A stretch of DNA of 64,000 bases, from positions 3,300,001 to 3,364,000 of the forward strand of contig NZ_CP159258.1 in the NCBI RefSeq assembly GCF_040438925.1, in the 5' to 3' direction. This document shows positions 20,531 through 62,467 of this stretch, piece by piece. Below the pieces are notes generated by a model. That model saw only the letters and a list, made by a program, of their open reading frames with translations, made no database searches and was not told where the DNA came from. Positions within the stretch are counted from its first letter, which is position 1. Every line of letters starts with the position of its first letter. The DNA is from Pseudomonas sp. MYb327. Its GTDB lineage: Bacteria > Pseudomonadota > Gammaproteobacteria > Pseudomonadales > Pseudomonadaceae. The translations under genes were made by a program, and so were the position numbers.

Positions 20531-20553
20531 ATAACTGTCATACCATCAGTTAT
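20531..20553. promoter_or_regulatory. Island operator 1 (palindrome)
   Basis: ATAACTG and CAGTTAT, exact inverted arms with a 9-base spacer, lie 35 bp from the quinone oxidoreductase start and 27 bp from the enoyl-CoA hydratase start, in their shared divergent spacer. It is the most symmetrical member of the nine-site set. Confidence 0.75.
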
Positions 20554-20579
20554 ACCCACCTACGACACTGGAAGCAATC

Positions 20580-21356
20580 ATGACCGAAGAAGTCATCTAT
20601 CAGCACCTGAATGGCGGTATTGCGCTGATCACACTCAATCGTCCGAATAAGCGCAATGCTATCAACGTCAGCGCTTCACAAACCCTCGCCCGCTTGGTCG
20701 AAGAGACTGAAGCCAACCCTGACATCCGCGTCGTGGTCCTGACAGGTACCGGGCCTCTGGCGTTTTGCGCAGGTGCCGACCTCGACGACATCGCCGCCGG
20801 TATCGGCGAACAGATCGCCGTCAACCAATCCGGCATGTGTGGCCTGATTCATGCCGAGCGACGCAAACCCTGGATTGCTGCCGTTCGTGGCGCGGCACTT
20901 GGCGGTGGTACTGAGCTGGCGCTGGCCTGTGACCTGATCATTGCGGGCAACAATGCCAACTTCACCTTGCCCGAGGTCAAGCGCGGGTTGATCGCCGGCG
21001 CTGGCGGTATCTATCGACTGATCCGGCGCATTGCACCGGCCGTTGCGATGGAGTTGCTATTGACCGGCAATCGACTTGAAGCCGAACGCGCAAAAGCACT
21101 CGGCCTGATCAACCAGTCAGTGGACGATGAACTCGTGCTGGAGGCTGCCCTTCAACTGGCACGGCAAATCGCTGCCAATGCACCACTGGCCGTTCAGGAG
21201 ACTCTGATGGTAGCGCGCCAGGCACTGGCACTCGGAGAGTCGCAATTACGCCTTGATGTCGAAGCCGCGGGTTTGAGGTTACAGGCATCTGAGGATGTGC
21301 AGATTGGCGTGCGTGCATTTCATGAAAAACGTACGCCCGAATGGAAAGGCAGATAG
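20580..21356 (+). CDS. Enoyl-CoA hydratase/isomerase family protein
   Basis: A 258-residue crotonase-fold protein. The oxyanion-hole segments are GTGPLAFCAGADLDDI (about residues 56-70) and AVRGAALGGGTELALACD (about 100-117); PEVKRGLIAGAGG supplies a glutamate at the usual catalytic site. Such enzymes hydrate or isomerise unsaturated acyl-CoAs. It stands alone rightward under operator 1, divergent from the quinone oxidoreductase/panC unit. The exact substrate is not readable from sequence. Confidence 0.9.
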   Translation: MTEEVIYQHLNGGIALITLNRPNKRNAINVSASQTLARLVEETEANPDIRVVVLTGTGPLAFCAGADLDDIAAGIGEQIAVNQSGMCGLIHAERRKPWIAAVRGAALGGGTELALACDLIIAGNNANFTLPEVKRGLIAGAGGIYRLIRRIAPAVAMELLLTGNRLEAERAKALGLINQSVDDELVLEAALQLARQIAANAPLAVQETLMVARQALALGESQLRLDVEAAGLRLQASEDVQIGVRAFHEKRTPEWKGR

Positions 21357-21394
21357 TCATCGGTGGCACAGCGGCAAAGGGCTTCCACCACGCA

Positions 21395-21417
21395 ACAACT
21401 GACTACATGATAGTTAT
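21395..21417. promoter_or_regulatory. Island operator 2 (palindrome)
   Basis: ACAACTG-N9-TAGTTAT, matching 12 of 14 positions of the core AACTGAC-N5-GTCAGTT. It lies about 195 bp upstream of the rubredoxin gene. The rest of the 21357-21611 spacer shows no gene. Confidence 0.6.
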
Positions 21418-21611
21418 TCAGAAATCCAGGCCCCTTCGGATTGCCCCGGAGAAATAGCATTGGCGTCATTGGCAACCCATAAAAACCAAAGTTATATTAC
21501 TCAAAAGTAACGCATGAGAATCATCCCTCCTTTCACTCAAGGTGAAAAACTGACCAACAGTCAATACCACTTGTTCCGGCACGCCCAAAACATAACAAGA
21601 GGCTGATGGAA

Positions 21612-21779
21612 ATGAAGAAATGGCAGTGCTTCTTCTGTGGCTTTACCTACGACGAAAACCTGGGCTTACCTGAGGAAGGCATCTTGCCCGGGACGTTCTG
21701 GCACGACATCCCCGAGACGTGGGTCTGCCCGGAGTGCGGAGCGGCCAAGCAAGATTTCGCGATGATCGAAGCAAGCTGA
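21612..21779 (+). CDS. Rubredoxin
   Basis: A 55-residue one-iron electron carrier. It begins [15 protein letters not shown] and has the two CxxC iron-binding knuckles: CFFC near residues 6-9 and CPEC near residues 39-42. [14 protein letters not shown] is the classic second half. The start is set at 21612 with AGAGG nine bases upstream; an in-frame ATG at 21606 would add two residues and sits too close to that site. Rubredoxins of this type feed electrons to membrane hydroxylases such as AlkB, but no hydroxylase or rubredoxin reductase is in the window. It precedes a GMC oxidase and an aldehyde dehydrogenase, probably one transcript. Confidence 0.93.
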
Positions 21780-21860
21780 CCGGCTCATGTCAGCCATAAC
21801 CCTCACCGATTACCGACCCCGGCACCTGAGCCCGGTGGTCTGCCAGCGCCCAAACAGCAG

Positions 21861-21868
21861 AACAATAA
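21861..21868 (+). promoter_or_regulatory. Hfq/Crc-type motif before the GMC gene
   Basis: AACAATAA fits the AANAANAA consensus recognised by Hfq with Crc in Pseudomonas mRNAs. It is 21 bases upstream of the GMC start codon, next to the ribosome site. Confidence 0.4.
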
Positions 21869-21889
21869 AACGACCCCTGGGACAGCAAA

Positions 21890-23539: not shown

Positions 23540-23584
23540 ATACAGCCGCCTTCCATTGCACAACAAATAGAAAGGATGACTGCA

Positions 23585-25075: not shown

Positions 25076-25140
25076 TAGCCCGAATTCGCCTGCCCCCGCA
25101 CCACGCTTAGCGCGTCGATGCGGGGCATTCACATCGTTCG

Positions 25141-26340: not shown

Positions 26341-26412
26341 AGCCCCTCCCGTTGGTAGCTGACACTCATGATCACGTATGCCCCCCCGGCAGTGCCAAGA
26401 CGCGGAGGCGAT

Positions 26413-27024
26413 TCACCGCGGACGCGGTGCGTAGCCCGCAAGAAAAAAGCGCACGATTTCTCTTAAGTGAGGTTCCACCTGCTCTTGCGCCAGCTGCACC
26501 CCCATTAGTCGTTCATGGGTGCGGCCCGCAAGGGTCAAAAAGATAATCGCGGCGTCGAGTGTGTTCGACATTTGCACCACACCTTTTGCGTTGAGTTGGT
26601 CGAGCCAGCCTGTCAACTGCGCCATGAAACCGCTCATGACCTCTTCACGGAAATTGATAATCAGCTGAGGAAATCTGACGCTCTCATGCGCACCTAACCG
26701 AGACATGGCCATGACACGCGGGGTACCGAGTTTGTCGTAAAACAGCAGGGCCAACTCGTAGAGCAATTGCGCGACTGGCCGATCAACCAGCAAAAAACTT
26801 AAATCGAGTTCGAAATCCCTGGAGATGTGCTCGAGCACAGCCTCAAACAACAACTCCTTGCTGGGAAAACGCCTATACAGTGCCGGCTTTGTTGTCTTCC
26901 CGGCCTCCGCGATACGACCGAGATTGGCATCGGTGTAGCCGAACTCCAGAAATTCGTCGGCGGCTGCCTGGAGCAGCGCCTCGTCCAATTCACGACGAGG
27001 CCGCCCCTTGGGTTTTACTGACAT
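26413..27024 (-). CDS. TetR-family regulator, candidate controller of the island
   Basis: A 203-residue TetR protein. The helix-turn-helix is at about residues 20-60 (LGRIAEAGKTTKPALYRRFP), followed by an all-helical ligand domain. Start 27024 (MSVKPKGRPRRELDE) has AAGGA five bases upstream; an upstream in-frame start at 27105 adds 27 residues with no family support. It is the only regulator inside the island and is placed between the CoA-transferase and SDR genes. I infer that it reads the 23-bp palindromes described at nine sites. A half-site (ACTGACAT) overlaps its own start codon. Confidence 0.9.
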   Translation of the reverse strand: MSVKPKGRPRRELDEALLQAAADEFLEFGYTDANLGRIAEAGKTTKPALYRRFPSKELLFEAVLEHISRDFELDLSFLLVDRPVAQLLYELALLFYDKLGTPRVMAMSRLGAHESVRFPQLIINFREEVMSGFMAQLTGWLDQLNAKGVVQMSNTLDAAIIFLTLAGRTHERLMGVQLAQEQVEPHLREIVRFFLAGYAPRPR

Positions 27025-27119
27025 GAAAGTCCTTCCACCATTTTGCTGTTCACCTACCCGATCAGTACCGGGCAGGTCGTTGTACGGCGCAAGGAAACTT
27101 AACATAACAGTCGGCTGTA

Positions 27120-27818
27120 TCAGGACAGGCCTACTACTGGAATGACGGCGCCGTTGAGCGCGCTGGCAGCATCACTGGCCAGGAATTGGAAAACTGCTGC
27201 CAACTGCTGCGGCGAGACCCAAAGGCTCGGATCTACATCTGGCATCGCGGCACGGTTCGCAGCGCTGTCGATGATGCTCGGGGCGACGGCATTGACGTTA
27301 ATGCCATGGCCACGCAGCTCCTGGGCCATGGATTCGGTGATCCGCGCCACGCTGCTTTTTGCTGCGCAATAGGCGCCCATCGAACCCTTGCCTGTGATGG
27401 CGGAAGCGGCCGATACGTTGATAATTTTGCCTGCGCCGGCTGCCAGCATTCCCGGCACGGTAGCGCGACAGGTGTTGAGCACGGTCGCGACGTTCAGGTC
27501 CATCATTTGCTGCCAAACAGTGCCGTCAGCGTCATGCACGTCACTTCCCATAGCAAATCCACCGGCAATGTTGCACAGCACGCCGGCCGGCCCTTTTTCC
27601 TGGAATACCTTGCCCAGCGCTGTCTGAGTCGCTGCGGTGTCGGTCAGGTCGACGACCACGAAATGCTTGTCGCCAGAGACACCCTCATAAACCGCTTGCA
27701 GCGCTTGCTCACTGCAATCGACCAACACAACCGGGCGGCCCTGCGCCAGAAAGGTTTGCGCGACAACACGGCCCACTGCACCCGCAGCGCCGGTGACCAC
27801 TACTAATGCGTCCGACAT
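27120..27818 (-). CDS. SDR-family NAD(P)-dependent oxidoreductase
   Basis: A 232-residue classical short-chain dehydrogenase. Cofactor loop TGAAGAVGRVVAQ is at residues 9-21, LCNIAGG replaces the usual NNAG, and the active site shows SAAS followed by YCAAK (Tyr about 149, Lys 153). It starts with a good AGAGGAG site and has an island operator 25-47 bp upstream. It may oxidise a ring or side-chain hydroxyl, or a 3-hydroxyacyl-CoA; the sequence does not decide. Confidence 0.9.
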   Translation of the reverse strand: MSDALVVVTGAAGAVGRVVAQTFLAQGRPVVLVDCSEQALQAVYEGVSGDKHFVVVDLTDTAATQTALGKVFQEKGPAGVLCNIAGGFAMGSDVHDADGTVWQQMMDLNVATVLNTCRATVPGMLAAGAGKIINVSAASAITGKGSMGAYCAAKSSVARITESMAQELRGHGINVNAVAPSIIDSAANRAAMPDVDPSLWVSPQQLAAVFQFLASDAASALNGAVIPVVGLS

Positions 27819-27833
27819 CTAGACTCTCCTCTT

Positions 27834-27841: not shown

Positions 27842-27842
27842 A

Positions 27843-27865
27843 ATAACTGACCATGTATCAGCTTA
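27843..27865. promoter_or_regulatory. Island operator 3 (palindrome)
   Basis: ATAACTG-N9-CAGCTTA, 12 of 14 core matches, lies 25 bp upstream of the SDR start codon in the divergent SDR/DUF35 spacer. Confidence 0.7.
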
Positions 27866-27965: not shown

Positions 27966-27988
27966 AAAAATAACAACATGTTAGTTTT
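27966..27988. promoter_or_regulatory. Island operator 4 (weak)
   Basis: AAAAATA-N9-TAGTTTT matches 11 of 14 core positions and lies 84 bp before the DUF35 gene. It gives the second arm of this divergent spacer its own site. Weaker than the others, so tentative. Confidence 0.4.
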
Positions 27989-28071
27989 GAGCGATAAATG
28001 ACTAGCGGTGGAAGCACTATGCAGGCTCAAGCATGATGTTCACTTCCTCCCCGTCAACGCTGGAGATTCTT

Positions 28072-28479
28072 ATGAGCACTGCCTACAAACGCGTATTGCC
28101 ACAGCTGGATGATCTCAACCGGTTTTTCTGGACCAGTGGCGCCGACGGCAAATTGCGCTTTCTGCGCTGCAACGACTGCGACCATTGGCTGCATCCGCCG
28201 GGAATCATCTGCCCGCAGTGCCTGAGCCGAAACCTCGCGCCGCAGGCGGTTTCGGGCCTGGGCACTATCGAGGCACTGACGATCAATCATCAGCCGTGGT
28301 CGCCTGACCAGCCTGTGCCTTATGCCGTCGCCATCGTTTCACTCGACGACCACAAAAGCCTGCAACTGACGACCAACATCGTCGGCTGCGCGCCCGAATC
28401 GTCCTTCATTGGTCAGCGGGTACGTGTGGTCTTCGAAGCTATCGAGGATGTTCACTTACCTCTGTTCACGCCTGTCTGA
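28072..28479 (+). CDS. DUF35 / OB-fold zinc-ribbon acyl-CoA-associated protein
   Basis: A 135-residue protein with a zinc ribbon (CNDCDHWLHPPGIICPQC, residues about 34-51) followed by an OB-fold (GTIEALTINHQPWSP). DUF35 proteins usually partner a thiolase-like Ltp protein, as in steroid side-chain retro-aldol cleavage, or a hydratase. ATG 28072 has GGAG six bases upstream. It leads a rightward run of four acyl-CoA dehydrogenases; no thiolase-like partner lies beside it. Confidence 0.88.
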   Translation: MSTAYKRVLPQLDDLNRFFWTSGADGKLRFLRCNDCDHWLHPPGIICPQCLSRNLAPQAVSGLGTIEALTINHQPWSPDQPVPYAVAIVSLDDHKSLQLTTNIVGCAPESSFIGQRVRVVFEAIEDVHLPLFTPV

Positions 28480-28489
28480 GAGAGCCCGC

Positions 28490-29587
28490 ATGCAAGAAGA
28501 ACACGCCGAAAGTCTCGCTTCGATCCGCGAACAGGCCAGGCGCCTGCTAAAGGATCAAGCCACCCCGGAACACTTGAAGTCGCTCCTGGATACACCCGCC
28601 AGTTTCGATCGACACTTGTGGAGTCATGCCGTCGACCAGGGCTGGCCAAGTGTCGCGGTAACCGAGCAATCGGGTGGTTTGGGTCTAGGCTGGAGCGGCC
28701 TTGGCGTGCTTTGCGAAGAAACCGGGCGCCTGACCACGTCATTACCGCTGATTGGCAACGCCGTGGCTGCTCATGCCCTGCAGTTCGCCAAAGGCAATTG
28801 GAGCACCTTGATCGAAGCATTGGCCAACGGAGGCAAGATCGCCTGCCTGGCCTTGGCGGATCCAGAGGACAGTGGCTTGGCGACAAGCCCGTCATTGTTG
28901 GCAAGCAACGGCATATTGCAGGGCGAAAAGGCCCTGGCAGCCTTTGCCAGCGTTGCCGACATTGCACTGGTCCAGGCACAAGGCGAACAAGGCAACGGGC
29001 TCTATCTGGTCGACCTAGCACACCCCGGTGTCACCCGCCGAACCTTCAATACCCTCGACAACGCCCGTGCCGCTGCTGTCCTGCAGTTCAAGCAGGTCCC
29101 GGCCACACCACTGGGCGGTGTCGACTTGATTCTGGATATCGCCAACCTGGCGGCCCTCGCCTGCGCCAGCGAGCAGATCGGCGGCGCCCGGGCCAGCCTG
29201 GATCTGGCCTGTGATTATGCCCGCGAGCGTCGTGCCTTCGGTCAACAGATTGGTAGCTTCCAGGGGATCAAGCACAAGCTCGCCGAAGCTTACTGCTTGC
29301 TGGAAATCGCCAAGGGTTGCACCAATGACGCGCTCAATGCCTGGGAAAACAGCTTGGTAGAGAGTCGCCAATTGAGCGCAGCAGCACGTATCGCAGCAAC
29401 CAAAGCCTACGACTACATCGCCCAGGAAGGACTGCATATCCACGGCGGCATGGGTATGACATGGGAAGCCATGCCTCATCACCACTACCGCCGCTCACGC
29501 ACGCTCGCCCTGGAACTGGGCAGCATCCACTACTGGCGTGAATGTCTGCTGAACGAAATCGGGCTGGAAACGGCGAATCATGGATAA
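28490..29587 (+). CDS. Acyl-CoA dehydrogenase, beta-type subunit (pair 1)
   Basis: A 365-residue acyl-CoA dehydrogenase-fold protein. The C-terminal half has RRAFGQQIGSFQGIKHKLAEAY and ends in the EGLHIHGGMGMTWEAMPHH signature found on the less catalytic partner of heteromeric FadE enzymes. ATG 28490 begins 10 bp after the DUF35 stop. It overlaps the next gene by 8 bp, which suggests equimolar synthesis of a heteromer. The N-terminal domain is short compared with stand-alone enzymes. Confidence 0.88.
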   Translation: MQEEHAESLASIREQARRLLKDQATPEHLKSLLDTPASFDRHLWSHAVDQGWPSVAVTEQSGGLGLGWSGLGVLCEETGRLTTSLPLIGNAVAAHALQFAKGNWSTLIEALANGGKIACLALADPEDSGLATSPSLLASNGILQGEKALAAFASVADIALVQAQGEQGNGLYLVDLAHPGVTRRTFNTLDNARAAAVLQFKQVPATPLGGVDLILDIANLAALACASEQIGGARASLDLACDYARERRAFGQQIGSFQGIKHKLAEAYCLLEIAKGCTNDALNAWENSLVESRQLSAAARIAATKAYDYIAQEGLHIHGGMGMTWEAMPHHHYRRSRTLALELGSIHYWRECLLNEIGLETANHG

Positions 29588-30800
29588 CGGCGGACCCATC
29601 ATGAGCAATACACTCGAACGCTATCGCGAACGCGCCAGATCCTGGCTGGCAGAGCACGCCCCCCTTTACGCTGGACAAGCACGGCGAGGGCTGAGCTTCA
29701 AAGAGGACCTGGACCTGGCTCGCGCCTGGCAAGCCCTCAAGGCAGAACACGGCTACGCCTGCATCACCCTGCCAACGGAGTTTGATGGTGCGGGTGGCAG
29801 CGAGCTGGAAAAAGTCGTCTTCAGCGAAGAAGAGATGCGTTATGACCTGCCACTGGTCTACTTCAGCATCAGCCTGAACAACCCCCTACCGATTTTCTTG
29901 CGCTACGCCCCGTCCTATTGGACCGAGCGCCTGGCCAGGCCCACTGTCCGTGGCGAGTTGATCTGGTGTCAGCTGTTTTCTGAGCCTTCGGCTGGCTCCG
30001 ACCTGGCGTCACTACGTTTGAAGGCTGTTGCAGTGGAAGGTGGCTGGCGCCTGAGCGGGCAAAAGGTCTGGACCAGCTGGGCACAAATCGCCGATTGGGG
30101 TGTGATCGTTGCCCGCACCGATCCGAGTCTGCCCAAGCACGCCGGGCTGACCTACTTCTTTGTCGATATGAAATCCCCTGGTGTGAGTGTTGTGCCGATC
30201 CGCCGTCTGGGCGAGGAAAGCGACCTCAACGAAGTGTTCTTCGATGATGTTTTCGTTCCCGACGATCAACGCTTGGGTGAGATCAATGGTGGTTTCAAGG
30301 TCGCGGTGGAAACGCTGATGATCGAACGCTATTCGGTCACCGACGAATCCGGCTACGCCCCCAGCCTGGAGAAATTCATCGCATTGGCCGGACAGTCGAA
30401 AATCAATGGCAAGCGCGCGCTTGATGACGCTGAGATCCGCGCCAGCATCGTCGATGTATTCGTCCAGCGCCAAGGCCTGCGCGCCATCCATCGCCAAGCC
30501 CTGGAGGCATTTGCCAAGGGCCAGGCTCCGGGCCCTGAAGGCGCCATGCGCAAATTGCTGTTGGGTCGCACCCGCCAGTCTTTAAGTCGGATGGCGATGA
30601 ACATCCAGGGCCCGAACAGCCTGGTCCTGAATGAAGATTCTCAGGCCAAGACCAACTTCACCAGCGCCTGGCTCGACCCCAGTTTGCGTATTGCCGGTGG
30701 TACCGACGAGTTACTGCTTAACACCTTGGCCGAGCGTGTGCTTGGCCTGCCGCAGGATTCACGGCCAGACAAGGGCCAGCCTTTTAACGCCAACAAATAA
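29580..30800 (+). CDS. Acyl-CoA dehydrogenase, alpha-type subunit (pair 1)
   Basis: A 406-residue acyl-CoA dehydrogenase with the FAD-side motif WCQLFSEPSAGSDLASL (about residues 128-144), the SGQKVWTSWAQ strand and a C-terminal RIAGGTDELLLNTLAERVLGL. It starts inside the end of the preceding gene; a second in-frame ATG at 29601 with GGCGGA upstream is an equally good start. Predicted partner of the 28490-29587 product in FAD-dependent alpha-beta desaturation of an acyl-CoA. Confidence 0.9.
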   Translation: MDNGGPIMSNTLERYRERARSWLAEHAPLYAGQARRGLSFKEDLDLARAWQALKAEHGYACITLPTEFDGAGGSELEKVVFSEEEMRYDLPLVYFSISLNNPLPIFLRYAPSYWTERLARPTVRGELIWCQLFSEPSAGSDLASLRLKAVAVEGGWRLSGQKVWTSWAQIADWGVIVARTDPSLPKHAGLTYFFVDMKSPGVSVVPIRRLGEESDLNEVFFDDVFVPDDQRLGEINGGFKVAVETLMIERYSVTDESGYAPSLEKFIALAGQSKINGKRALDDAEIRASIVDVFVQRQGLRAIHRQALEAFAKGQAPGPEGAMRKLLLGRTRQSLSRMAMNIQGPNSLVLNEDSQAKTNFTSAWLDPSLRIAGGTDELLLNTLAERVLGLPQDSRPDKGQPFNANK

Positions 30801-30845
30801 ACGCCCCGGGCGGCCTTGGTCGCCCGCCATCGAAGGATCTCGCTC

Positions 30846-32045
30846 ATGCATTTCACTCTCGATCAGGAAGACGAGCGCTTCCGTCAGGAAGTCCGTGCCT
30901 TCCTCAAGGCCAAACTGCCCCAGGATCTGGCTGAACGCAATCGCCGGGGTTACCACCCCTTGCGTGAAGACACCCGCCAGTGGACCAAGATCCTTCGCGC
31001 CCAGGGCTGGTCCGGCGCCAATTGGCCGACATCCTGGGGCGGCACCGGATGGTCGCCCGTGCGTCAGTTCATTTTCGAAGAGGAAAGCATCCTGGCCGGT
31101 GCGCCGGCGGTCGATACCGCTGGATTCAAGATGATCGGCCCGGTAATCATGACCTTCGCCAACGACACCATGAAGGCACAGTACGGCCCACGCATCCTCA
31201 GCGGGGATGTCTTTTGGGGCCAGGGTTTTTCCGAACCCAATGCCGGATCGGACTTGGGCTCTTTGACGACGCGTGCCGAACGCGACGGCGATGAATATGT
31301 CATCAACGGGCAGAAAATCTGGACCTCGTTCGTTGAAACCGCGGACATGATTTTCATCCTCGCCAAGACCGATCCGCAGGCACGTCAGCGTGGTATTTCG
31401 ATGATTCTTGTCGACCGCCAGGCGCCGGGCGTGACTATTCGCCCGATTTATGACATCGGTGAAAGTCACAGCCTCAACGAAGTCTTCTTCGATGATGTGC
31501 GGGTTCCGGTCAGCAATCTGGTCGGTGAGGAAGGCATGGGTTGGACCTACGCTAAATTCCTGCTGGAAAACGAGCGGGCGTTCAGTGCCGAATGGCCACG
31601 CAACAATGCCCACCTCGCCCGCCTACGGACTTTGCTTAATACACCGCAGCACGATGGTCGGCGATTGATCGATCGGCCTGGCTTTGCTAGTCGCCTGGCA
31701 CAACTCAATACTGACTTGCTGGCATTGCGCTGGCTGAGTCTGCGCGCCCTGCACGAAAAAGCAGGAGGCCATGTCCGTTTGCCGGTGGGCTCGCTGCTGA
31801 AAATCCGCGGTTCGGAACTCCTGCAAAAAATTGGCGAGTTGCAAGTCGAAGCCCTCGGCAGCCACGCCAGCTATGTCTACCCCGACCCATTGGGCGACGC
31901 CCAACGCCAGCGAACCTGGCCACCGGGCCCAAACACGGCGCCCGGCATCATGGCGGATTATTTCTACCGTCGCGCCACCACTATTTACGGTGGTGCAAAT
32001 GAAGTTCAACGCACGATTATCGCCCGTTCGTTCCTGGAGCTCTGA
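30846..32045 (+). CDS. Acyl-CoA dehydrogenase, alpha-type subunit (pair 2)
   Basis: A 399-residue acyl-CoA dehydrogenase: FWGQGFSEPNAGSDLGSL (about residues 125-142), INGQKIWTSFVETADM, and a C-terminal TIYGGANEVQRTIIARSFLEL in which the usual YEG glutamate position is glycine. ATG 30846 has AAGGA eight bases upstream. The following gene starts 2 bp after its stop, so the pair is tightly coupled. Confidence 0.9.
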   Translation: MHFTLDQEDERFRQEVRAFLKAKLPQDLAERNRRGYHPLREDTRQWTKILRAQGWSGANWPTSWGGTGWSPVRQFIFEEESILAGAPAVDTAGFKMIGPVIMTFANDTMKAQYGPRILSGDVFWGQGFSEPNAGSDLGSLTTRAERDGDEYVINGQKIWTSFVETADMIFILAKTDPQARQRGISMILVDRQAPGVTIRPIYDIGESHSLNEVFFDDVRVPVSNLVGEEGMGWTYAKFLLENERAFSAEWPRNNAHLARLRTLLNTPQHDGRRLIDRPGFASRLAQLNTDLLALRWLSLRALHEKAGGHVRLPVGSLLKIRGSELLQKIGELQVEALGSHASYVYPDPLGDAQRQRTWPPGPNTAPGIMADYFYRRATTIYGGANEVQRTIIARSFLEL

Positions 32046-32047
32046 GC

Positions 32048-33247: not shown

Positions 33248-33324
33248 CAACGCTGCTCCACACGCCCCACGGGGCACCCATGACAACAAACACACCGCTA
33301 TAACAAAACCAAGAGGACCGTGTG

Positions 33325-38548: not shown

Positions 38549-38571
38549 TTAACTAACGTTATGTCAGTTTT
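38549..38571. promoter_or_regulatory. Island operator 5 (palindrome)
   Basis: TTAACTA-N9-CAGTTTT, 13 of 14 core matches, lies in the 121-bp divergent spacer between the fused dehydrogenase (-) and the isochorismatase-fold gene (+). Confidence 0.72.
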
Positions 38572-44187: not shown

Positions 44188-44220
44188 ATTTGCCTCTGAA
44201 AAGACTGGAGTCGTCGGCAC

Positions 44221-45288: not shown

Positions 45289-45361
45289 TTCATCCTCACA
45301 GCACTACTGAGCCAGGTGGGTTCGAAGAGCCAAGCACCAGGTGCTCGACTCTTCCCGGGTT

Positions 45362-46741: not shown

Positions 46742-46779
46742 TGATGAACCCTCACATCAGGCAGGTAAAGGGAAGCCAA

Positions 46780-48665: not shown

Positions 48666-48688
48666 CAAGCTAACAGATCGTCAGCTAT
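48666..48688. promoter_or_regulatory. Island operator 6 (DUF1302 side, weaker)
   Basis: CAAGCTA-N9-CAGCTAT, 11 of 14 core matches, 168 bp upstream of the DUF1302 start and next to the T-rich tract. Confidence 0.5.
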
Positions 48689-48941: not shown

Positions 48942-48964
48942 ATAACTGATATATCGTCAGCTTT
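48942..48964. promoter_or_regulatory. Island operator 7 (flavoenzyme side)
   Basis: ATAACTG-N9-CAGCTTT, 12 of 14 core matches, 96 bp upstream of the dienoyl-CoA-reductase-like gene. An AACAATAA motif (48972-48979) follows directly. Confidence 0.7.
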
Positions 48965-49060
48965 ACTGCATAACAATAAACCAGCCGCTTTTTCATGCGA
49001 CCACGCCAAGCCCCCCTCCGGGCAGGTGTGCGGCAAGCAAAAAAAGCCAGGAGCCAGCTG

Positions 49061-51079: not shown

Positions 51080-51116
51080 TGCTCAACCGAACTGGATCTT
51101 GCCCAAGGAAACCATC

Positions 51117-52319
51117 ATGCAACTGACGCTCTCCCCCGAGGATCTGGCCTTTCGCGAGTCGGTCCGGGCCTTTCTCAAGGATAAACTGACCGATGACGTC
51201 ATTCGTCGCAGCCGCACCGGTATGCATCCGCCGAACGAAGATGACCGACGCTGGTGGAACCGGGTGCTCAACGAGCAAGGTTGGGCCGCACCACATTGGC
51301 CGGTCGAATACGGTGGAACCGGCTGGAGCCATCTGCAGACGCACATCTTCGAGTACGAATGCAAACTGGCCGGCGCCCCGGAGCTGCGCTGGCAAGGCCT
51401 GCGCCTGCTCGCCCCGGTGTTGTACACCTATGGCAGCGAGCAACAAAAGGCTCGCTACCTGCCACCGATTCTCAATGGCGATGAAATGTGGGCGCAGGGC
51501 TTCTCCGAGCCCGGTGCCGGGTCTGACCTCGCCGCACTCAAGACCAAGGGCGTGCTTGACGGCGATCACTACGTAGTCAACGGCCAAAAGCTCTGGACCA
51601 CCGAAGGTCAGTACTGCGAGCAAGGCTTCTTTCTTGTACGTACGGAAAACAGTGATCGCCCGCAAAAGGGAATTTCGATGATGATCATCGACATGAAGTC
51701 ACCTGGCGTCACGGTGCGGCAGATCCCGATGATCAACGGTGAAGGCTCGACCTGCGAAGTGTTCCTCGACAACGTCCGGGTCCCGAGGGAAAACATTATC
51801 GGTGAAGTCAATCAGGCGTGGTCCCAGGCCAAGTTCCTGCTGTCCAACGAGCGCACCTCCAGCGCCGACATCTATAAGGCCCGCGCTGACCTTGAGCGCA
51901 TCCGCCTGATTGCCGGCGCAGAGCACAAGAATGGCTTGCCGCTGCTTCAGGATTCCGAATTCGTGAGGCGTTTCACCGGTGTGCGCCTGGAGGTTGAAGC
52001 GCTGGAATGGTCAGTGCTGCGCGTGCTGCATGAGGCCCCCAGCCACCACCCCATTGCCGCCTGCGCGTCGGTACTGAAAGTGCGCGGTTCATCCCTGCAA
52101 CAGAAACTCACCGAGCTGATGAGCGACGCGTTGGGTCAGCGCAGCCTGCGGGTCTACAGCCGCGATGAGGCGTTTGCCGACCCGACGGGCGATCCGCTGT
52201 GGCCGGACCATGTTCCCGGCGTCACCGCAGACCTCATGTACTTGCGCGCCTGCACCATTTTTGGCGGCGCCATGGAAGTACAAAAGAACATCATTGCCAA
52301 ACTGGCTTTCGGGTTTTGA
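51117..52319 (+). CDS. Acyl-CoA dehydrogenase, alpha-type subunit (pair 3)
   Basis: A 400-residue acyl-CoA dehydrogenase: MQLTLSPEDLAFRESVRAFL at the start, MWAQGFSEPGAGSDLAALK (about residues 124-142), VNGQKLWTTEGQY and a C-terminal TIFGGAMEVQKNIIAKLAFGF. ATG 51117 has AAGGAA six bases upstream, and the gene starts 37 bp after the flavoenzyme. The next gene begins 2 bp after its stop, the same spacing as pair 2. Confidence 0.9.
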   Translation: MQLTLSPEDLAFRESVRAFLKDKLTDDVIRRSRTGMHPPNEDDRRWWNRVLNEQGWAAPHWPVEYGGTGWSHLQTHIFEYECKLAGAPELRWQGLRLLAPVLYTYGSEQQKARYLPPILNGDEMWAQGFSEPGAGSDLAALKTKGVLDGDHYVVNGQKLWTTEGQYCEQGFFLVRTENSDRPQKGISMMIIDMKSPGVTVRQIPMINGEGSTCEVFLDNVRVPRENIIGEVNQAWSQAKFLLSNERTSSADIYKARADLERIRLIAGAEHKNGLPLLQDSEFVRRFTGVRLEVEALEWSVLRVLHEAPSHHPIAACASVLKVRGSSLQQKLTELMSDALGQRSLRVYSRDEAFADPTGDPLWPDHVPGVTADLMYLRACTIFGGAMEVQKNIIAKLAFGF

Positions 52320-52321
52320 CC

Positions 52322-53476
52322 ATGAATTTCGAACTCACTGATGAACACAAGCTGCTGGCCGAAAGTGCCGAGCGCTACATGCGCGAACGTTATGTATTCG
52401 AAGAGCGTCGCCACACCGTTACCAACGGTGCGCATTTCTCGCGCAAACACTGGCAGCACTTCGCCGAAATGGGCTGGCTGGCGCTGGACATCCCCGAAGC
52501 GGACGGTGGCGTGGGCGCCAGCAGTTTCGAGCTGACGCAGTTGATGGAACCCTTGGGACATGGCTTGGTGCTCGAACCTGTGGTCGACACAGCTGTGCTC
52601 TGTGCAAGCATCCTGGGCACAAGTGACAATACCGGCGAGCGCCAGCGCCTGCTTGAATCGATTGCCACCGGTGAAACCGTGATGGCCCTCGCCCATCAGG
52701 AACAAGACTCTCGCAATGAATACCAGGTGCAACTGCGCAGCAGCGCTCGCCGCGTAGCCGATGGCTGGGCCTTGAATGGCCAAAAGCACCGCGTATTCCA
52801 TGGCGGTGTAGCGGAAAGCTATCTGGTGAGCGCCATCCTTGAAGACAGCAACGAAGCGGCTCTCTTCGTGGTCGCGCGTGCGGCTGTGGGGATGACGGCC
52901 AACACCTACGAGCTGATCGACGGCAGTCGCGCCGCGGATCTGCATTTGCAAGACGTACAGGTCACTGACGCAAACCTGTTATTGCGCGGCGAAGCCGTGC
53001 AGCAAGCCATTGAAGCCGGGCTCGACCGCGCCATCCTGGCGTTGTGTGCTGCCAGCGTTGGCTCCATGGAAGCGGTCATGGCCATGACCGCTGACTACCT
53101 CAAGACACGCGTGCAATACGGCAAGCCTCTTGCGCAATTCCAGGCCCTGCAACATCGCATGGCGGAGATGTTCGTGGAAACCGACCAGGCCAGGTCCATG
53201 TTGTTCAGCGCGATCAATGCGTTTGACTCAGGGGTAGTCGAGACCCAGCGCCAGGCACTGTCCGGCGCCAAGGTATTTATCGCCCGCGCCCACTATTTCG
53301 TTGCCAGCCAAGGCATTCAGTTACACGGCGGCATCGGCACCACCGATGAGTATGCGGTCGGCCATCACTACAAGGCAGCCGTACTGTTTGAAAAGCGTTT
53401 TGGCGACAGCGATTTCCACCTGACTCGCGCCGCCGGCAACCTGCAACAACCCGTCGGAGGAGCTTTGTATGCGTGA
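52322..53476 (+). CDS. Acyl-CoA dehydrogenase, beta-type subunit (pair 3)
   Basis: A 384-residue partner-type acyl-CoA dehydrogenase: MNFELTDEHKLLAESAERYM, RVQYGKPLAQFQALQHRMAEM (about residues 262-282) and IQLHGGIGTTDEYAVGHHYK near the end. Predicted to form a heteromer with the preceding gene product. It overlaps the acyl-CoA synthetase start by 8 bp, so translation is coupled through to the ligase. Confidence 0.9.
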   Translation: MNFELTDEHKLLAESAERYMRERYVFEERRHTVTNGAHFSRKHWQHFAEMGWLALDIPEADGGVGASSFELTQLMEPLGHGLVLEPVVDTAVLCASILGTSDNTGERQRLLESIATGETVMALAHQEQDSRNEYQVQLRSSARRVADGWALNGQKHRVFHGGVAESYLVSAILEDSNEAALFVVARAAVGMTANTYELIDGSRAADLHLQDVQVTDANLLLRGEAVQQAIEAGLDRAILALCAASVGSMEAVMAMTADYLKTRVQYGKPLAQFQALQHRMAEMFVETDQARSMLFSAINAFDSGVVETQRQALSGAKVFIARAHYFVASQGIQLHGGIGTTDEYAVGHHYKAAVLFEKRFGDSDFHLTRAAGNLQQPVGGALYA

Positions 53477-55025
53477 TTATCTGCCACTGTCTTTCGCCGA
53501 TGACCTTGAACAACGCGCACGTTTTTATCGCAATGACCCGGCTTATATTCTGGGTGAGAAACGCATCAGCCACGACGAGCTGCTGTCCAGCGCAAAACTA
53601 ATCGGCTCGGCCTTGCATAATGCCGGGTTGCAGCATCAGGATCGGGTCGGGATCCTCTCGATGAATTCGATTGAGTTCGGCGAAATCATGGCTGCCACCC
53701 AGTGGGCCGGCTATATCCTCGCACCCGTCAATTTCCGGTTAGCCCCGGCCGAGATCGCCAGCATTGTCCGTGATGGCTCGCCTCGGCTGTTCTTTTTCGA
53801 AGCGCAGTATTTGCCGATCATGGAGCAATTGCGCCATGAAATGCCTTCAGTGGAGACCTTTGTCTGCATCGATGGCGAGAGCGACTGGGCAATCGGCTAT
53901 GAAGACTTCATCGCCACTGGCGATCCGCTCGGCCCACCGATCCGCGCCACCGAAGAAGACATCTGCTGCCTGATCTACACCAGCGGTACCACCGGAAAAC
54001 CCAAAGGCGTGATATGGGGCCACCGCGAGTATCGGCAGTTGGTCCAGGTCGATACCTGGTTGATCGACATGCAGCAACCGGACGTCACCCTGATCGTCAT
54101 GCCCATGTTCCATTTGGGCGGCATGGTCATCAGTCTGTCCCAGCACGTTCGTGGCGGCGCAGCCTTTCTTCAGCGTCAGTTCGAGCCTCTGGATGTGCTC
54201 AGGGCCATCGAAAAGGAGCGCTTGAGCATCCTGCTGCTGGCACCGACCATGGTACAGATGGTGCTCGAGCATCCGTACGTGAGCCAGGCCGACCTCTCAA
54301 GCGTACGCACCATCATTTACTCCGCAGCCCCCATGCCGGTGCCGGTACTGAAAAAAGCCATCGATGTGTTCAACGGCTGCAACTTCGTCAACCTGTTCGG
54401 CCAGAGTGAAATCTGCATGTTCTCGCTGTCGTCGTCCCAACATCGACCCGATGGCACTGAGCAGGAGCGCAAGCGCCTGGGCTCGGTGGGCAAGCCCTAC
54501 CCCAACCTGCTGGCCAAGGTGGTCGATGAGGACGGTAACGAATGCCTGCCAAACCAACCGGGGGAAATCCTCGCCAAGAGCAGCGCGATGTTCCGTGGTT
54601 ACTGGAACAACAATGCCGCCACCCTGCAAACCCTGCGTGATGGCTGGTGCCATACCGGTGACATGGGTCGCTTCGATGACGATGGTTTCCTGTACCTGGT
54701 CGATCGCAAGAAAGACATGATCATTACCGGTGGCGAAAACGTCTATTCACGGGAAGTCGAAGAAGCCCTGCTGCAACACGCTGCAGTATCCGAATGTGCC
54801 GTGATTGGCATTCCCGATGCCAAATGGGGTGAAAGCGTCTGCGCGGTCATCACCTTCAAACAGGGAGAAAGCACCAGCGAAGACGCCCTTATCGAGCACA
54901 CGCGGGCACTGATTGCCAGTTACAAGAAACCGAAAAAAATCATTGTGGTCGATGCGCTGCCCAAGCTAGTCACCGGCAAGGTCAACAAGATCGAACTGCG
55001 CAAGCTCTACGCACAACCGAACTGA
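53469..55025 (+). CDS. Acyl-CoA synthetase (AMP-forming) 2
   Basis: A 518-residue ANL ligase of the FadD/FadD3-like medium-size type. Motifs present: LIYTSGTTGKPKGVIWGH (about residues 170-187), NLFGQSEICMF, WCHTGDMGRFDDDGFLYLVDRKKD and GGENVYSREVEE, with the catalytic lysine in KLVTGKVNKIELRK at the end. A strong GGAGGAG precedes the ATG. It differs clearly from synthetase 1 (39.2-40.8 kb), so the pathway probably activates two different acids or two stages. Confidence 0.93.
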   Translation: MRDYLPLSFADDLEQRARFYRNDPAYILGEKRISHDELLSSAKLIGSALHNAGLQHQDRVGILSMNSIEFGEIMAATQWAGYILAPVNFRLAPAEIASIVRDGSPRLFFFEAQYLPIMEQLRHEMPSVETFVCIDGESDWAIGYEDFIATGDPLGPPIRATEEDICCLIYTSGTTGKPKGVIWGHREYRQLVQVDTWLIDMQQPDVTLIVMPMFHLGGMVISLSQHVRGGAAFLQRQFEPLDVLRAIEKERLSILLLAPTMVQMVLEHPYVSQADLSSVRTIIYSAAPMPVPVLKKAIDVFNGCNFVNLFGQSEICMFSLSSSQHRPDGTEQERKRLGSVGKPYPNLLAKVVDEDGNECLPNQPGEILAKSSAMFRGYWNNNAATLQTLRDGWCHTGDMGRFDDDGFLYLVDRKKDMIITGGENVYSREVEEALLQHAAVSECAVIGIPDAKWGESVCAVITFKQGESTSEDALIEHTRALIASYKKPKKIIVVDALPKLVTGKVNKIELRKLYAQPN

Positions 55026-55042
55026 ACCCAGGCGAGGTTGCC

Positions 55043-57262
55043 ATGAACTTGAATTTATCCGAAGAGCAGCAAATGTTGCTCAACTCCGTCACCCGCCTTT
55101 TCAGCGTTGAGTCCAGCCCTGCACGCGTGCGCGCAGCAGAAGCCCGTGGGTTCGACGCTGACTTGTGGCAGCAACTGGTGGATTTCGGTATCACAACCAT
55201 GCGCATACCGGCATCCGCCGGTGGTTCAAACTTGGGACTGCTGGAAGCACTGCTGGTTGCCGAGGAAGCGGGACGCCATCTGGTATCGGTGCCCCTGGCC
55301 GAATCGCTGCCGGCAGCCCGCCTGCTGGCACAACTCGACAGCCCGGCCGCAACAGCGCTGCTCGATCAAGCCAAACAGGGCGAACTGATCACGCTCGCCC
55401 CCCAGCCCTACTGCGCGGGGCGATCAATTGCCCTGCCGGGTGCCGGAGCCGCGGTTGCGGTGCTTGTTCGTCGGGGCGATGCCATTCTGGCCCTGACAGG
55501 GCTGGCGGCAAAACCGCCAAGCGCCAATCTTGGCGCCGATAGTGTGCAGATACTGGCCGCCGATGACGACACGGTCGAGAGCCACCTGGTCGCCAGCGGT
55601 ATTGAGTCCTGCCGCGCATTCGAGCAAGCGGTGGAGGAGTGGAAACTGCTCAAGGCAGCCATGCTGACGGGCCTTGCCCATCAGGCATTGAAGCTAGCCG
55701 CTGCTTATTCATGCGAGCGCCAGCAGTTCGGTCGGGCTATCGGTGGTTTTCAGGGTATCGCCCATCCACTGGCCGACGCCCTGACCGAAATCGAGGGCGG
55801 CCAACTGCTGGTACGACATGCGGTCTGGAGCATCGCGCGGCAGCAACCCGATGCGGCCGCATTGGTCTCCATGGCCTGGTGGTGGGCAACGCAATCTGCC
55901 GGGCGTGCGGTGGCCCGTGCGCTGCATACTTTCGGTGGCTACGGCGTTTCACTGGAATACGATGTGCAACTGTACTACCGCCGGGCAAAAGCCTGGGGGA
56001 TGCTCAATGGCGACCCGCAGCTTGAGCTGGACAGGCTTGCCGCACGCTTGTGGGGTGACGGCCACGCCGTCGCCCTGCCAGACGTCGGTGAGGTCAATCT
56101 GGAATTCGGCTACGGGCCGCAGGCTGCACTGTTCGCCGAAGAGGTTCGCGCGTTTTTCCGCAAACATCTGACCGAAGAATTGAAAGCCCACGCCCATCAT
56201 TCGGTCGATGGCTACCATGCCGGCTTTAACCGCATGCTGGCCGACGCAGGCCTGCTGTTTCCTCATTGGCCTGCCGAATTCGGCGGACGGGGCAAGAACG
56301 CATTTGACATGGCCGCCTTGCAGGAAGTGTTCGAAGCGCACAGCTGGCAACGCATCACCACCCCGATCACCAATCAGGTGGCGCAGATCGTCATGCGTTT
56401 CGCCAGCGACGAAGTCAAAACAGAAGCCCTGCCCCGCTTTGCCAGCGGCGAGGCATTGGCTTGCCTGGGCTTCAGTGAGCCCTCGTGCGGCTCCGACGTT
56501 TTTGCTGCGAAGACGCGTGCCACGCGCACCTTTGATGGCAACTGGGTCATCAACGGGCAGAAGATGTTCACTACCGCCGCCAACCTTGCGGACTATGTTT
56601 TCCTGCTGGTGCGGACCAACCCCGATGTGCCCAAGCATGCTGGCCTGACGCTGTTCCTGGTACCGATGGACTTGCCGGGCATCGAAGTCCACCCGGTGCA
56701 TACCCTGCAGGATGAGCGCACCAACATCACCTACTTGAGCGAAGTTGTCGTCGCCGATCGCTATCGGATCGGTGAAATCGACGGTGGCACCGCTGTCATG
56801 GCCGCAACCCTGGAGCTGGAGCACGGCGGTGATCAGTACCGCATCAGTTTCGAAAACATGTACAAGCATGCGCTGCAATGGGCGCAATCCACTCGGCGCG
56901 ATGGCCACCCCATGTTGGCAAATGCCGATGTACAACGCCGACTGGCACGTGTGGCAGTACACACGACCATTGCCCGCGACCTGTGCTACCGGACCATTTG
57001 GGGAGTACAGGAGCAAGTGCCTGGCCGCGCCGCCTTCGGACCGATGTCGAAACTGTTTTCCACCGAACAGTACCAGCGTGATGCCCTCGACTTGATGGAC
57101 CTTTGCGCGCCCGACACCTTACTGCAATCAAACACCGGGCTGGGGCATGTGGAGCTTGGCTATCGGCAGTCGATCGGCATGACGATCTACGGCGGTACCA
57201 GCGAGATCCATCGCAGCCTTATTGCCGAACAGGCACTCGGCATGCCGCGCTCCAGGACTTGA
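55043..57262 (+). CDS. Double-length acyl-CoA dehydrogenase 2 (beta-alpha fusion)
   Basis: A 739-residue fusion of two acyl-CoA dehydrogenase folds. The first half (1 to about 335) has RQQFGRAIGGFQGIAHPLAD and the partner-type LHTFGGYGVSLEYDVQLYY. The second half has CLGFSEPSCGSDVFAAKTRA, INGQKMFTTAANLADY and TIYGGTSEIHRSLIAEQALG. It differs from the fusion at 36.2-38.5 kb, so it is not a recent duplicate. It sits between synthetase 2 and the hotdog thioesterase. Confidence 0.92.
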   Translation: MNLNLSEEQQMLLNSVTRLFSVESSPARVRAAEARGFDADLWQQLVDFGITTMRIPASAGGSNLGLLEALLVAEEAGRHLVSVPLAESLPAARLLAQLDSPAATALLDQAKQGELITLAPQPYCAGRSIALPGAGAAVAVLVRRGDAILALTGLAAKPPSANLGADSVQILAADDDTVESHLVASGIESCRAFEQAVEEWKLLKAAMLTGLAHQALKLAAAYSCERQQFGRAIGGFQGIAHPLADALTEIEGGQLLVRHAVWSIARQQPDAAALVSMAWWWATQSAGRAVARALHTFGGYGVSLEYDVQLYYRRAKAWGMLNGDPQLELDRLAARLWGDGHAVALPDVGEVNLEFGYGPQAALFAEEVRAFFRKHLTEELKAHAHHSVDGYHAGFNRMLADAGLLFPHWPAEFGGRGKNAFDMAALQEVFEAHSWQRITTPITNQVAQIVMRFASDEVKTEALPRFASGEALACLGFSEPSCGSDVFAAKTRATRTFDGNWVINGQKMFTTAANLADYVFLLVRTNPDVPKHAGLTLFLVPMDLPGIEVHPVHTLQDERTNITYLSEVVVADRYRIGEIDGGTAVMAATLELEHGGDQYRISFENMYKHALQWAQSTRRDGHPMLANADVQRRLARVAVHTTIARDLCYRTIWGVQEQVPGRAAFGPMSKLFSTEQYQRDALDLMDLCAPDTLLQSNTGLGHVELGYRQSIGMTIYGGTSEIHRSLIAEQALGMPRSRT

Positions 57263-60257: not shown

Positions 60258-60276
60258 CATCACACTCCACGGGGTC

Positions 60277-60284: not shown

Positions 60285-60295
60285 AAACTCACTTG

Positions 60296-60318
60296 AAAGC
60301 TGACATTCGGTCAGTTAT
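60296..60318. promoter_or_regulatory. Island operator 8 (palindrome)
   Basis: AAAGCTG-N9-CAGTTAT, 13 of 14 core matches, in the divergent spacer between hydratase 3 and the GldA-like gene. A half-site, AACTGACATT, lies further right at 60388-60397, directly before the GldA-like gene's ribosome site. Confidence 0.75.
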
Positions 60319-60415
60319 GTGTAGAATGTATAGCACCGTAAACGGGGACGCAAGCCAAAAAAAGCCAAAGAAAAAATTACAATAACCAACTGACATTCAT
60401 TTTTAGGAGCTTCCC

Positions 60416-61492: not shown

Positions 61493-61509
61493 TTCCCTGA
61501 GTGCCAGAC

Positions 61510-61543
61510 AGCAGAAAGGGGAGACTGGGCTCCCCTTTCTGCT
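61510..61543. terminator. Hairpin between the convergent GldA-like and metal-hydrolase genes
   Basis: AGCAGAAAGGGGAG and CTCCCCTTTCTGCT form a perfect 14-bp stem with a six-base loop. There is no T-run, but the position between two convergent stops supports termination in both directions. Confidence 0.68.
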
Positions 61544-61569
61544 GCCGAGAACTTTCTGCTGCCTGGAAC

Positions 61570-62376
61570 TCAGGAAAAACGCGCGAGCAATTCAGCCATG
61601 CCCGGGGACGGAATCATTTTTGCCGGGTTGTAGAACGGCGACAGCACCTTGACCAAGCGCTTCTTGCTGGCCTTGGAAATTTTTGCCTTCAGCAGCTTCT
61701 GGCGCTCGATGGATGCGGAGCGTTGTTCCTCAGTCATGCCTTCGCGATCTTTGTCAGTCAAGTAAGCCGCCACCCGCGCCGTGTGCGAACCGATGTGCTT
61801 GACCGCATAACCGAAGGCCCAGACCCGATACAACCAGGCGAACAGGCCGTTGCCATACAGCGCCTTATAGGCCTGGAAGCACACTTCCCGGTGTTCGAAC
61901 TCTTCTGCCAAGTGCCACTTCCACAAGTCCACCGCTTCTTGGTCGGCGCCTTCGAGGTACTCGCCAAGTTCCTCGAAAAAGACCTGTCCGGCCGACGAAC
62001 CCATGGCCTCGAAACCTTCGCAATAGGCGACATTGAAGCGCAGCGATTTTGTGTCGAGGAAACGCTGGTAATCCTCCTTGTAAGGTTTCTCCAGGGCCTG
62101 CATGCCTTCATAACCAGACTTGTACAGCATCTTGTTGAAAGCCACGTGCTGCTTGCAGTGCTGCACTTCCTGCTTGTTGAAAATCTCGATGCTTTCGCGC
62201 AGTTTTGGATGGCTTTCGCCCAGGGCATCCTTGACGCGCATCATGACTTTGACCAGAAACGGCTCGATATGCGCAGGTACCGTGGAAAACGCATTGTAGC
62301 TCTGGGCAAATTCATGGACCGGTGCCCAATGGGGTCGAATACTGGAAAAATCGAAGTTGGGTAGACGGACTTTCAT
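61570..62376 (-). CDS. Predicted metal-dependent hydrolase (PF10118), ferritin-like
   Basis: A 268-residue all-helical protein of the 'metal-dependent hydrolase' family. Probable metal ligands lie in IFNKQEVQHCKQHVAFN (E and H about residues 69-76) and WHLAEEFEHREVCFQAY (E-E-x2-E-H, about 150-165), a ferritin-like di-metal pattern that would equally suit an oxygenase or hydroxylase. Start 62376 has AGAGGA nine bases upstream; a GTG six bases earlier is less likely. It has its own operator and A-rich leader, so it is a dedicated regulon member. The true reaction of this family is not established to my knowledge. Confidence 0.8.
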   Translation of the reverse strand: MKVRLPNFDFSSIRPHWAPVHEFAQSYNAFSTVPAHIEPFLVKVMMRVKDALGESHPKLRESIEIFNKQEVQHCKQHVAFNKMLYKSGYEGMQALEKPYKEDYQRFLDTKSLRFNVAYCEGFEAMGSSAGQVFFEELGEYLEGADQEAVDLWKWHLAEEFEHREVCFQAYKALYGNGLFAWLYRVWAFGYAVKHIGSHTARVAAYLTDKDREGMTEEQRSASIERQKLLKAKISKASKKRLVKVLSPFYNPAKMIPSPGMAELLARFS

Positions 62377-62390
62377 CGCCACGGTTCCTC

Positions 62391-62401
62391 TTATTGTTAT
62401 T
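62391..62401 (-). promoter_or_regulatory. Double Hfq/Crc-type motif before the metal-hydrolase gene
   Basis: On the mRNA strand AATAACAATAA contains two overlapping AANAANAA matches directly before the AGAGGA ribosome site. This is the clearest such site in the window. Confidence 0.5.
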
Positions 62402-62444
62402 GATCGTGCTCAAGTCGGGCCGCAGGAGCCCAACTGCAAGAATA

Positions 62445-62467
62445 ATAAATGACTGTTTGTCAGTTGT
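62445..62467. promoter_or_regulatory. Island operator 9 (palindrome)
   Basis: ATAAATG-N9-CAGTTGT, 13 of 14 core matches, 69 bp upstream of the metal-hydrolase gene. Confidence 0.7.

Follow-up and report, generated by a model that had tools for sequence, protein, structure and literature searches.

A repeated 23-bp palindrome in a catabolic island of Pseudomonas sp. MYb327 and a TetR-type protein as its most likely regulator

Within a 64,000-bp stretch of the 6.15-Mb genome of Pseudomonas sp. MYb327 (contig NZ_CP159258.1, positions 3,300,001-3,364,000; hereafter the window, in which short coordinates count from its first base), a 23-bp palindrome recurs in the spacers of a catabolic gene island. 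The repetition is far above chance, and the clustering of the sites is real. With a probability of about four in five, we consider, the palindrome serves as operator for a TetR-type repressor that is specific to the island, controls its own gene and is encoded outside the window (regulator A below). This reading rests on the sites themselves, their clustering, their conservation, and a co-occurrence with A that is better than that with either a TetR protein in the window (regulator B) or a MarR protein of the same island (regulator C).

The palindrome and the island that carries it

The 23-mer consists of the half-site ATAACTGACA and its inverted copy, with 3 bp between the halves. A matrix from 19 sites of the genome itself yields a symmetrical 23-mer, and the consensus of a second matrix, built on 124 sites in six relatives and in Massilia, is ATAACTGACAAATTGTCAGTTAT; the second is partly dependent on the first, which was used to pick its sites. 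Allowing up to 3 mismatches, the core AACTGAC-N5-GTCAGTT had 11 matches in the window, where 1.58 were expected (maximum of 100 shuffles, 4). The outer form ATAACTG-N9-CAGTTAT matched 7 times against 0.82 expected (shuffle maximum 4), and alone recovers just 7 of the sites. With the 124-site matrix, thresholds of 10, 12 and 14 bits returned 11, 11 and 10 matches, as opposed to 6, 1 and 0 in the reversed control, while 60 Markov-shuffled windows contained a mean of 0.43 matches at 10 bits (maximum 3, top score 19.3).

A first-pass annotation, made from the letters of the window, had listed nine such sites. All nine are present where it placed them, upstream of genes and above chance, and none, as far as can be judged, falls in a credible gene, the site at 48942 overlapping only an 88-amino-acid open reading frame (ORF) that we judge spurious. 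Its division into seven strong sites, with at least 12 of the 14 core bases, and two weaker ones is borne out by core mismatches (1-2 in each of the seven, 3 each at 27966 and 48666). By matrix score, however, the two "weak" sites are strong, reaching 29.0 and 21.4 bits in a range of 21.4-30.2 bits for all nine (124-site matrix). The list, real throughout, was also short of two sites, at 21546 and 60382, which the 124-site matrix adds (Table 1). One additional core match, at 21548 with 2 mismatches, is that of the 23-mer at 21546-21568; another, at 48453 (3 mismatches, 8.3 bits), lies within a gene. The site at 62445 seems to sit between convergent genes only if the plus-strand frame 61501-62364 is taken as a gene. 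The conserved frame there is 61570-62382 on the minus strand, with 76-86% identity in six of six relatives versus 41-53% for the plus frame, and the site thus stands 62 bp upstream of a start.

Conservation is confined to the 23 bp, the first flanking base carrying 0.25 bit of information and those further out at most 0.06. Many sites precede a gene start by no more than about 120 bp, and divergent spacers are a frequent location. A fixed -10 box beside the site was considered and rejected: TATAAT-like words do peak at the site edge (29/282), at a level that, by a rough estimate, is that of the motif's own TAT. A consensus promoter scan of 19000-28500 returned one promoter-like site, below the shuffle mean of 4.6.

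Over the whole genome, 42 matches with up to 2 mismatches were found, versus 27 for the reversed-pattern control. Nineteen of them fall within 93 kb (3320533-3413714; binomial p ~1e-23, for a stretch chosen after seeing the sites), and the 23 outside the island are no more than the whole-genome control. Equally good sites scattered among unrelated promoters would have spoken against the regulon that the annotation proposed; the sites are instead confined to one island, with no excess elsewhere, and their clustering supports an operator-like palindrome and a regulon limited to that island. The annotation's sparing of the 18-kb core holds as well, as no site of at least 8 bits (own-genome matrix) occurs in the first 20.5 kb of the window or the preceding 20 kb. 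The island is larger than the window, sites extending about 50 kb beyond its end. In the surrounding sequence analysed (3,280,001-3,440,000), 21 sites reached at least 14 bits, against 0 reversed, and 25 reached at least 12 bits (3 reversed), one of them inside a gene (3,365,462). The other 24 are spread over 7 spacers of the window and 9 past its end (16 in all); three of these sites (48942; 3,384,636; 3,404,254) overlap doubted mechanical ORF calls and were counted as intergenic.

Regulator A and its co-occurrence with the palindrome

The annotation took the TetR protein in the window to be the only regulator inside the island. In fact the island has at least three: B, the MarR protein C (3,383,050-3,383,571), and A, a second TetR protein of 248 amino acids encoded on the minus strand at 3,403,290-3,404,036, 39 kb past the window end. 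Further regulators are possible, as part of the island ORFs was scanned. A came to light through its 52% match to a TetR protein on a plasmid of Massilia putida, which itself has a 25.4-bit site 45 bp upstream. Although A gave no Pfam match at 1e-6, a looser threshold detected TetR_C_38 (26.2 bits, cut-off 23.9), and TetR_N (PF00440) scored 23.7 bits, just under its cut-off of 24; many homologues of A are listed with PF00440. In the AlphaFold model (mean pLDDT 89), a TetR-like all-helical fold and the C-terminal domain are present, and the best fold match is EthR. Of the PDB sequences, 20 matched A at E <=0.1, with EthR first and none named KstR; KstR (5fmp) was a weaker fold match to the model, at rank 30 with a TM score of 0.48. 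An N-terminal stretch, NKQGQ-LGRKG-ETR, is strongly conserved in 46 homologues and could contact the A/T-rich outer bases of the site.

At least one site of at least 14 bits lies upstream of A in 11 of 11 close homologues, the nearest at 45-404 bp. A was present in all nine motif-rich Pseudomonadaceae tested, genomes that had been chosen for having B or a close C and not for the motif alone. Among ten genomes tested, nine had A, and the tenth (G458) had a 42% MarR and no A. In a smaller draw of 288 Pseudomonadaceae, A was found in 8, the own genome counted.

The pairing of the motif with A is seen in Gamma-, Beta- and Alphaproteobacteria alike, and the motif clusters of Massilia and Azospirillum are catabolic and plasmid-borne. 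On the plasmid of M. putida (Betaproteobacteria), stretches of 40 and 50 kb hold 7 and 6 sites of at least 14 bits, with 0 reversed, and a third Massilia stretch of 50 kb holds 1. Among 36 island proteins with a Massilia ortholog, 12 are headed by a site at home, and 8 of these 12 are so headed in Massilia too, versus 3 of the other 24 (Fisher p 0.0018). This plasmid (NZ_CP019037.1) carries, at 47-66 kb, two copies of A, 82% identical over 221 residues and each with upstream sites. In Azospirillum sp. B510 (Alphaproteobacteria), 40.6 kb of plasmid holds 4 sites of at least 14 bits (0 reversed), with none in the 48-kb flanks; the central stretch encodes a 53% homologue of A, with no match to B or C. 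In Sphingomonas paeninsulae, a 36% homologue of A has a 20.0-bit site 70 bp upstream, the sole one of at least 14 bits in 30.5 kb. Of the three more distant homologues, in Azospirillum, Sphingomonas and Novosphingobium resinovorum (28%), only the one in Sphingomonas has a site at its own gene.

Several observations weigh against A. The Azospirillum gene has no site of even 6 bits near its start, and Azospirillum orthologs of site-bearing genes have sites in 2 of 5 cases against 1 of 10 for other genes, counts that slightly lowered our confidence. Around the Novosphingobium homologue no site of at least 14 bits was found in 40 kb, and no motif in 10 kb. At A of the own genome (G000), the 34-bit site is 217 bp away and the closer one, at 97 bp, scores a weak 12.5 bits; in G115 the sites are 404 and 536 bp from A. 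Moreover, any island ORF has roughly a 30% chance of an upstream site (28 of 94 have one of at least 12 bits within 350 bp, in a greedy and partly spurious ORF set), so autoregulation in the Pseudomonas clade counts roughly once. Several of the 11 close homologues have identical site sequences, leaving about five independent placements in few lineages. B (8/9) and C (9/9) are near-constant companions of the motif genomes as well, and A, the motif and the catabolic genes may have been transferred as one set, with no binding of the motif by A. A nevertheless passes the tests that B fails, except for the missing site at its own gene in Azospirillum, and it is the likeliest reader of the palindrome, ahead of B and C.

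Other candidate readers of the palindrome

The annotation had assigned the palindrome to B, which would then repress the island and its own operon. This is not without appeal: B follows, within the island, an SDR gene preceded by the 27843 site, which leaves about 820 bp between that site and B, and it occurs in 8 of 398 Pseudomonadaceae (own copy counted; orthologs 60-69%), all of them motif genomes. The Azospirillum plasmid also carries a 29% homologue, about 54 kb away from A and with no site of at least 10 bits near it. However, a relative that is 92% complete (G242) retains 12 sites of at least 14 bits in 100 kb (0 reversed) and C, and has A on another contig with upstream sites of 29.7 and 23.9 bits, yet no ortholog of B was found in it, only 26-30% matches elsewhere. 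Nor does B have a match in three Massilia stretches (about 140 of 457 kb) or in the central Azospirillum stretch with the sites. Where it does occur, the nearest upstream site of at least 14 bits is 1,215-6,268 bp away in five of five relatives measured, the 250 bp in front of the gene, compared at 8 loci, showed no conserved palindrome, and B travels with GMC oxidoreductase and aldehyde dehydrogenase genes that are all missing from the G242 stretch. B is thus probably not the reader, and the assignment, which picked the TetR protein in view from a window that did not contain A, is corrected here. The nearest named homologue of B is in Pseudomonas sp. TH41 (93%).

We regard binding by the MarR protein C as very unlikely. 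C, which has a MarR_2 domain and a weak BilQ match (26 bits, cut-off 125), was the favoured candidate while G242 was known to have the MarR without B. Its orthologs (67-70%) occur in the motif genomes, G242 included, and a search of 398 Pseudomonadaceae found C at 67% or more in nine (own genome counted) and at 28-30% in three more. A 45% homologue lies in the Massilia cluster, and more remote ones occur in Novosphingobium resinovorum (44%) and Sphingomonas paeninsulae (35%, about 418 kb away on the record). In the own genome and six of six relatives measured, a 23-mer precedes either an SDR-MarR pair or the MarR gene itself, and the half-site TGACA is common to the 23-mer and a second palindrome found at C. 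It was that second palindrome that led us to drop C as the reader. TTGACA-N6-TGTCAA (up to 2 mismatches), with a spacing of N6 rather than N3, lies just upstream of the MarR gene at 15 of the 19 loci compared. Among the own and close loci 7 of 9 have it, at 42-45% identity 2 of 3, and at 28-35% still 6 of 7, while 4.2 kb of reversed sequence has 0. Loci sharing it are the own one (L006:1050-1571) and L032, L053, L054, L055, L091, L093, L096 and L098. C also has no match in the central Azospirillum stretch that carries the sites, although two unlisted Azospirillum records do contain a relative, so C may lie elsewhere on that plasmid. Because the 23-mer heads C itself (about 145 bp upstream in G167 and G242) or, elsewhere measured, the SDR-MarR pair, C is probably a target of the 23-mer's regulator, not that regulator itself.

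A general chromosomal regulator that is not specific to the island is still harder to reconcile with the data, even though only part of these genomes' regulators was compared. Matches outside the island show no excess in the own genome (23 of the 42, against a whole-genome control of 27) and little in 11 Pseudomonas without A (172 versus 139), and the motif occurs in the plasmid-borne clusters of Massilia and Azospirillum. Repeated palindromes can also be repeat elements, mobile or structural, rather than operators. We give this next to no credence, given that conservation is limited to the 23 bp and that sites stand at promoters of orthologous genes in distant bacteria.

Proposed control of the island and known counterparts

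Returning to A as the reader, we infer binding, the sign of regulation, the ligand and the substrate as follows. Without inducer, an A dimer would sit on the sites, mostly within about 120 bp upstream of starts and often in divergent spacers, and would repress the CoA (coenzyme A)-thioester catabolic operons of the island together with its own gene. Release of A from DNA would be brought about by a metabolite of the pathway that fits an EthR-like pocket; the likeliest is an acyl-CoA of a steroid- or terpenoid-like substrate. Three features suggest such repression, relieved by a pathway metabolite: the closeness of the sites to starts, their pairing in wide divergent spacers and the predicted TetR fold.

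The island genes are of the CoA-thioester catabolic kind, with many acyl-CoA dehydrogenases, CoA ligases, hydratases, thiolases and OB-fold partners, joined by a Rieske oxygenase with a KshA_C domain and a DUF1302/DUF1329/BNR/MMPL block (Table 1). Resemblances to steroid enzymes are seen in the KshA_C Rieske protein, an SCP2-type thiolase and the acyl-CoA dehydrogenases; structure 4x28 is that of a steroid side-chain enzyme. These genes point to a steroid- or terpenoid-like ring compound as the substrate, and the island probably serves to degrade steroid-like molecules. Pfam scans of part of the island ORFs found no extradiol dioxygenase or 3-ketosteroid dehydrogenase family, the search being confined to the island. 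The BaiCD-like flavoenzyme, at 392.5 bits, is below the BaiCD family cut-off of 825. A protein of Metapseudomonas resinovorans is a homologue of A (83%), and growth on testosterone is reported for a strain, perhaps a different one, named Pseudomonas resinovorans (PMC4810484).

Table 1. Palindrome sites and selected genes of the window (scores in bits; own-genome matrix, then 124-site matrix)
Feature	Position	Strand	Context	Own-genome	124-site
Putative operator site	20531..20553		divergent spacer: 19791-20495(-) zinc-type alcohol dehydrogenase / 20580-21356(+) enoyl-CoA hydratase	26.5	28.8
Putative operator site	21395..21417		spacer upstream of GMC oxidoreductase / aldehyde dehydrogenase genes	23.6	22.8
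Second, weaker site	21546..21568		same spacer as 21395; 2 core mismatches	13.9	13.4
Putative operator site	27843..27865		24 bp upstream of the SDR gene preceding regulator B	24.0	
Putative operator site	27966..27988		44 bp upstream of OB-fold / acyl-CoA dehydrogenase genes (from 28033)	25.9	29.0
Putative operator site	38549..38571		divergent spacer: fused acyl-CoA dehydrogenase(-) / isochorismatase-like(+)	28.7	
Putative operator site	48666..48688		167 bp upstream of the DUF1302/DUF1329/BNR/MMPL block(-)	18.7	21.4
Putative operator site	48942..48964		30 bp upstream of BaiCD-like flavoenzyme gene (48995, +)	27.3	30.2
Putative operator site	60296..60318		divergent spacer: enoyl-CoA hydratase(-) / iron-type alcohol dehydrogenase(+)	28.9	
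Second, weaker site	60382..60404		same spacer as 60296	12.2	19.7
Putative operator site	62445..62467		62 bp upstream of 61570-62382(-)	29.3	
Regulator B (window TetR)	26413..27024	-	TetR_N, TetR_C_7; downstream of the SDR gene behind the 27843 site		
SDR dehydrogenase	27120..27818	-	gene before B; Massilia ortholog likewise with sites upstream		
OB-fold protein and four acyl-CoA dehydrogenases	28033..33184	+	order and leading site kept in Massilia putida		
Rieske oxygenase, KshA_C domain	33322..34359	+	best solved chains: 3-ketosteroid 9alpha-hydroxylase oxygenase		
MMPL, BNR, DUF1329 and DUF1302 genes, putative transport block	41683..48498	-	behind the 48666 site		
BaiCD-like flavoenzyme, acyl-CoA dehydrogenases, CoA ligase	48995..57262	+	behind the 48942 site		
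Conserved gene	61570..62382	-	behind the 62445 site; plus-strand ORF 61501-62364 probably spurious		

As a TetR-type operator regulon the system is ordinary in kind; it is unusual in its size and in being traceable across three classes. EthR of Mycobacterium tuberculosis, the closest solved relative of A in fold and sequence, controls an ethA-like monooxygenase, whereas A would run a large catabolic island. The predicted fold of A is also closer to EthR than to KstR. BilQ and other MarR regulators resemble only C, through MarR_2 and a weak match, and C goes by position with a different palindrome. The nearest parallel in logic is KstR2: KstR and KstR2 of Actinobacteria, which act in cholesterol catabolism, are TetR-type repressors with palindromes in the divergent spacers of one catabolic cluster and a site before the regulator's gene. 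For KstR2, the motif AnCAAGnnCTTGnT and a proposed regulon of 15 genes with three promoter regions are reported (PMC3068626), in contrast to a 23-bp site of another sequence, ATAACTGACAAATTGTCAGTTAT, in 16 spacers here. Homologs of KstR1 and KstR2 are reported in a review to be absent from bile-acid-degrading Proteobacteria, whose distinct regulatory mechanisms it calls largely unknown (PMC8399759). The nearest proteobacterial case is EdcR of Caenibius tardaugens, a TetR-type repressor of steroid catabolic operons in estradiol degradation that also uses palindromic operators; it differs from A in its operator, TnnCnnTACnAnTnGTAnnGnnA, and in having TetR_C_11 where A has TetR_C_38 (PMC8700777). 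Passages on other TetR proposals in Caenibius, from two reports, do not name the palindrome (PMC12882949; PMC12239570). In the titles and abstract openings of the papers listed, mostly outside subscription papers, we found no description of the motif or of A, and a search for PF19352 / TetR_C_38 found no paper.

With an operator defined by 24 sites and a candidate repressor named, binding could be tested directly and the regulon mapped in any genome, and a sensor for the substrate might result. On a broader view, A and its 23-bp operator may form a stand-alone regulatory unit for the catabolism of steroid- or terpenoid-like compounds. Such a unit would be the proteobacterial equivalent of KstR and would have been carried, along with the catabolic genes, into Gamma-, Beta- and Alphaproteobacteria; a second tier, a MarR protein with its own operator and a module-bound TetR protein, would stand behind the operators of A. 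We hold the arguments for and against this wider picture to be evenly balanced.

Other features of the island stand somewhat apart. The genes for GMC oxidoreductase, aldehyde dehydrogenase, CoA transferase, B and glycolate-oxidase-like proteins (window 21890-27024 and genome 3,414,555-3,420,934) are all absent from the G242 stretch, as if they were a removable module. Beyond the window, a Gabija-type anti-phage pair lies inside the island at 3,386,193-3,389,004 on the minus strand (GajA, E 4.5e-228; GajB, E 9.2e-140); it has no match in the analysed stretches of six relatives and is therefore probably an insertion. The gene for an MCP chemotaxis receptor (3,389,228-3,391,240) follows a transporter gene that has a site in front, and that of a Cache-domain protein (3,408,369-3,409,196) has a site 54 bp upstream; their presence suggests that substrate sensing may belong to the palindrome regulon. 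At the end of the window, the long plus-strand ORFs 61501-62364 and 63605-64597 are probably antisense shadows of conserved minus-strand frames, the one at about 63650-64500 being enoyl-CoA-hydratase-like.

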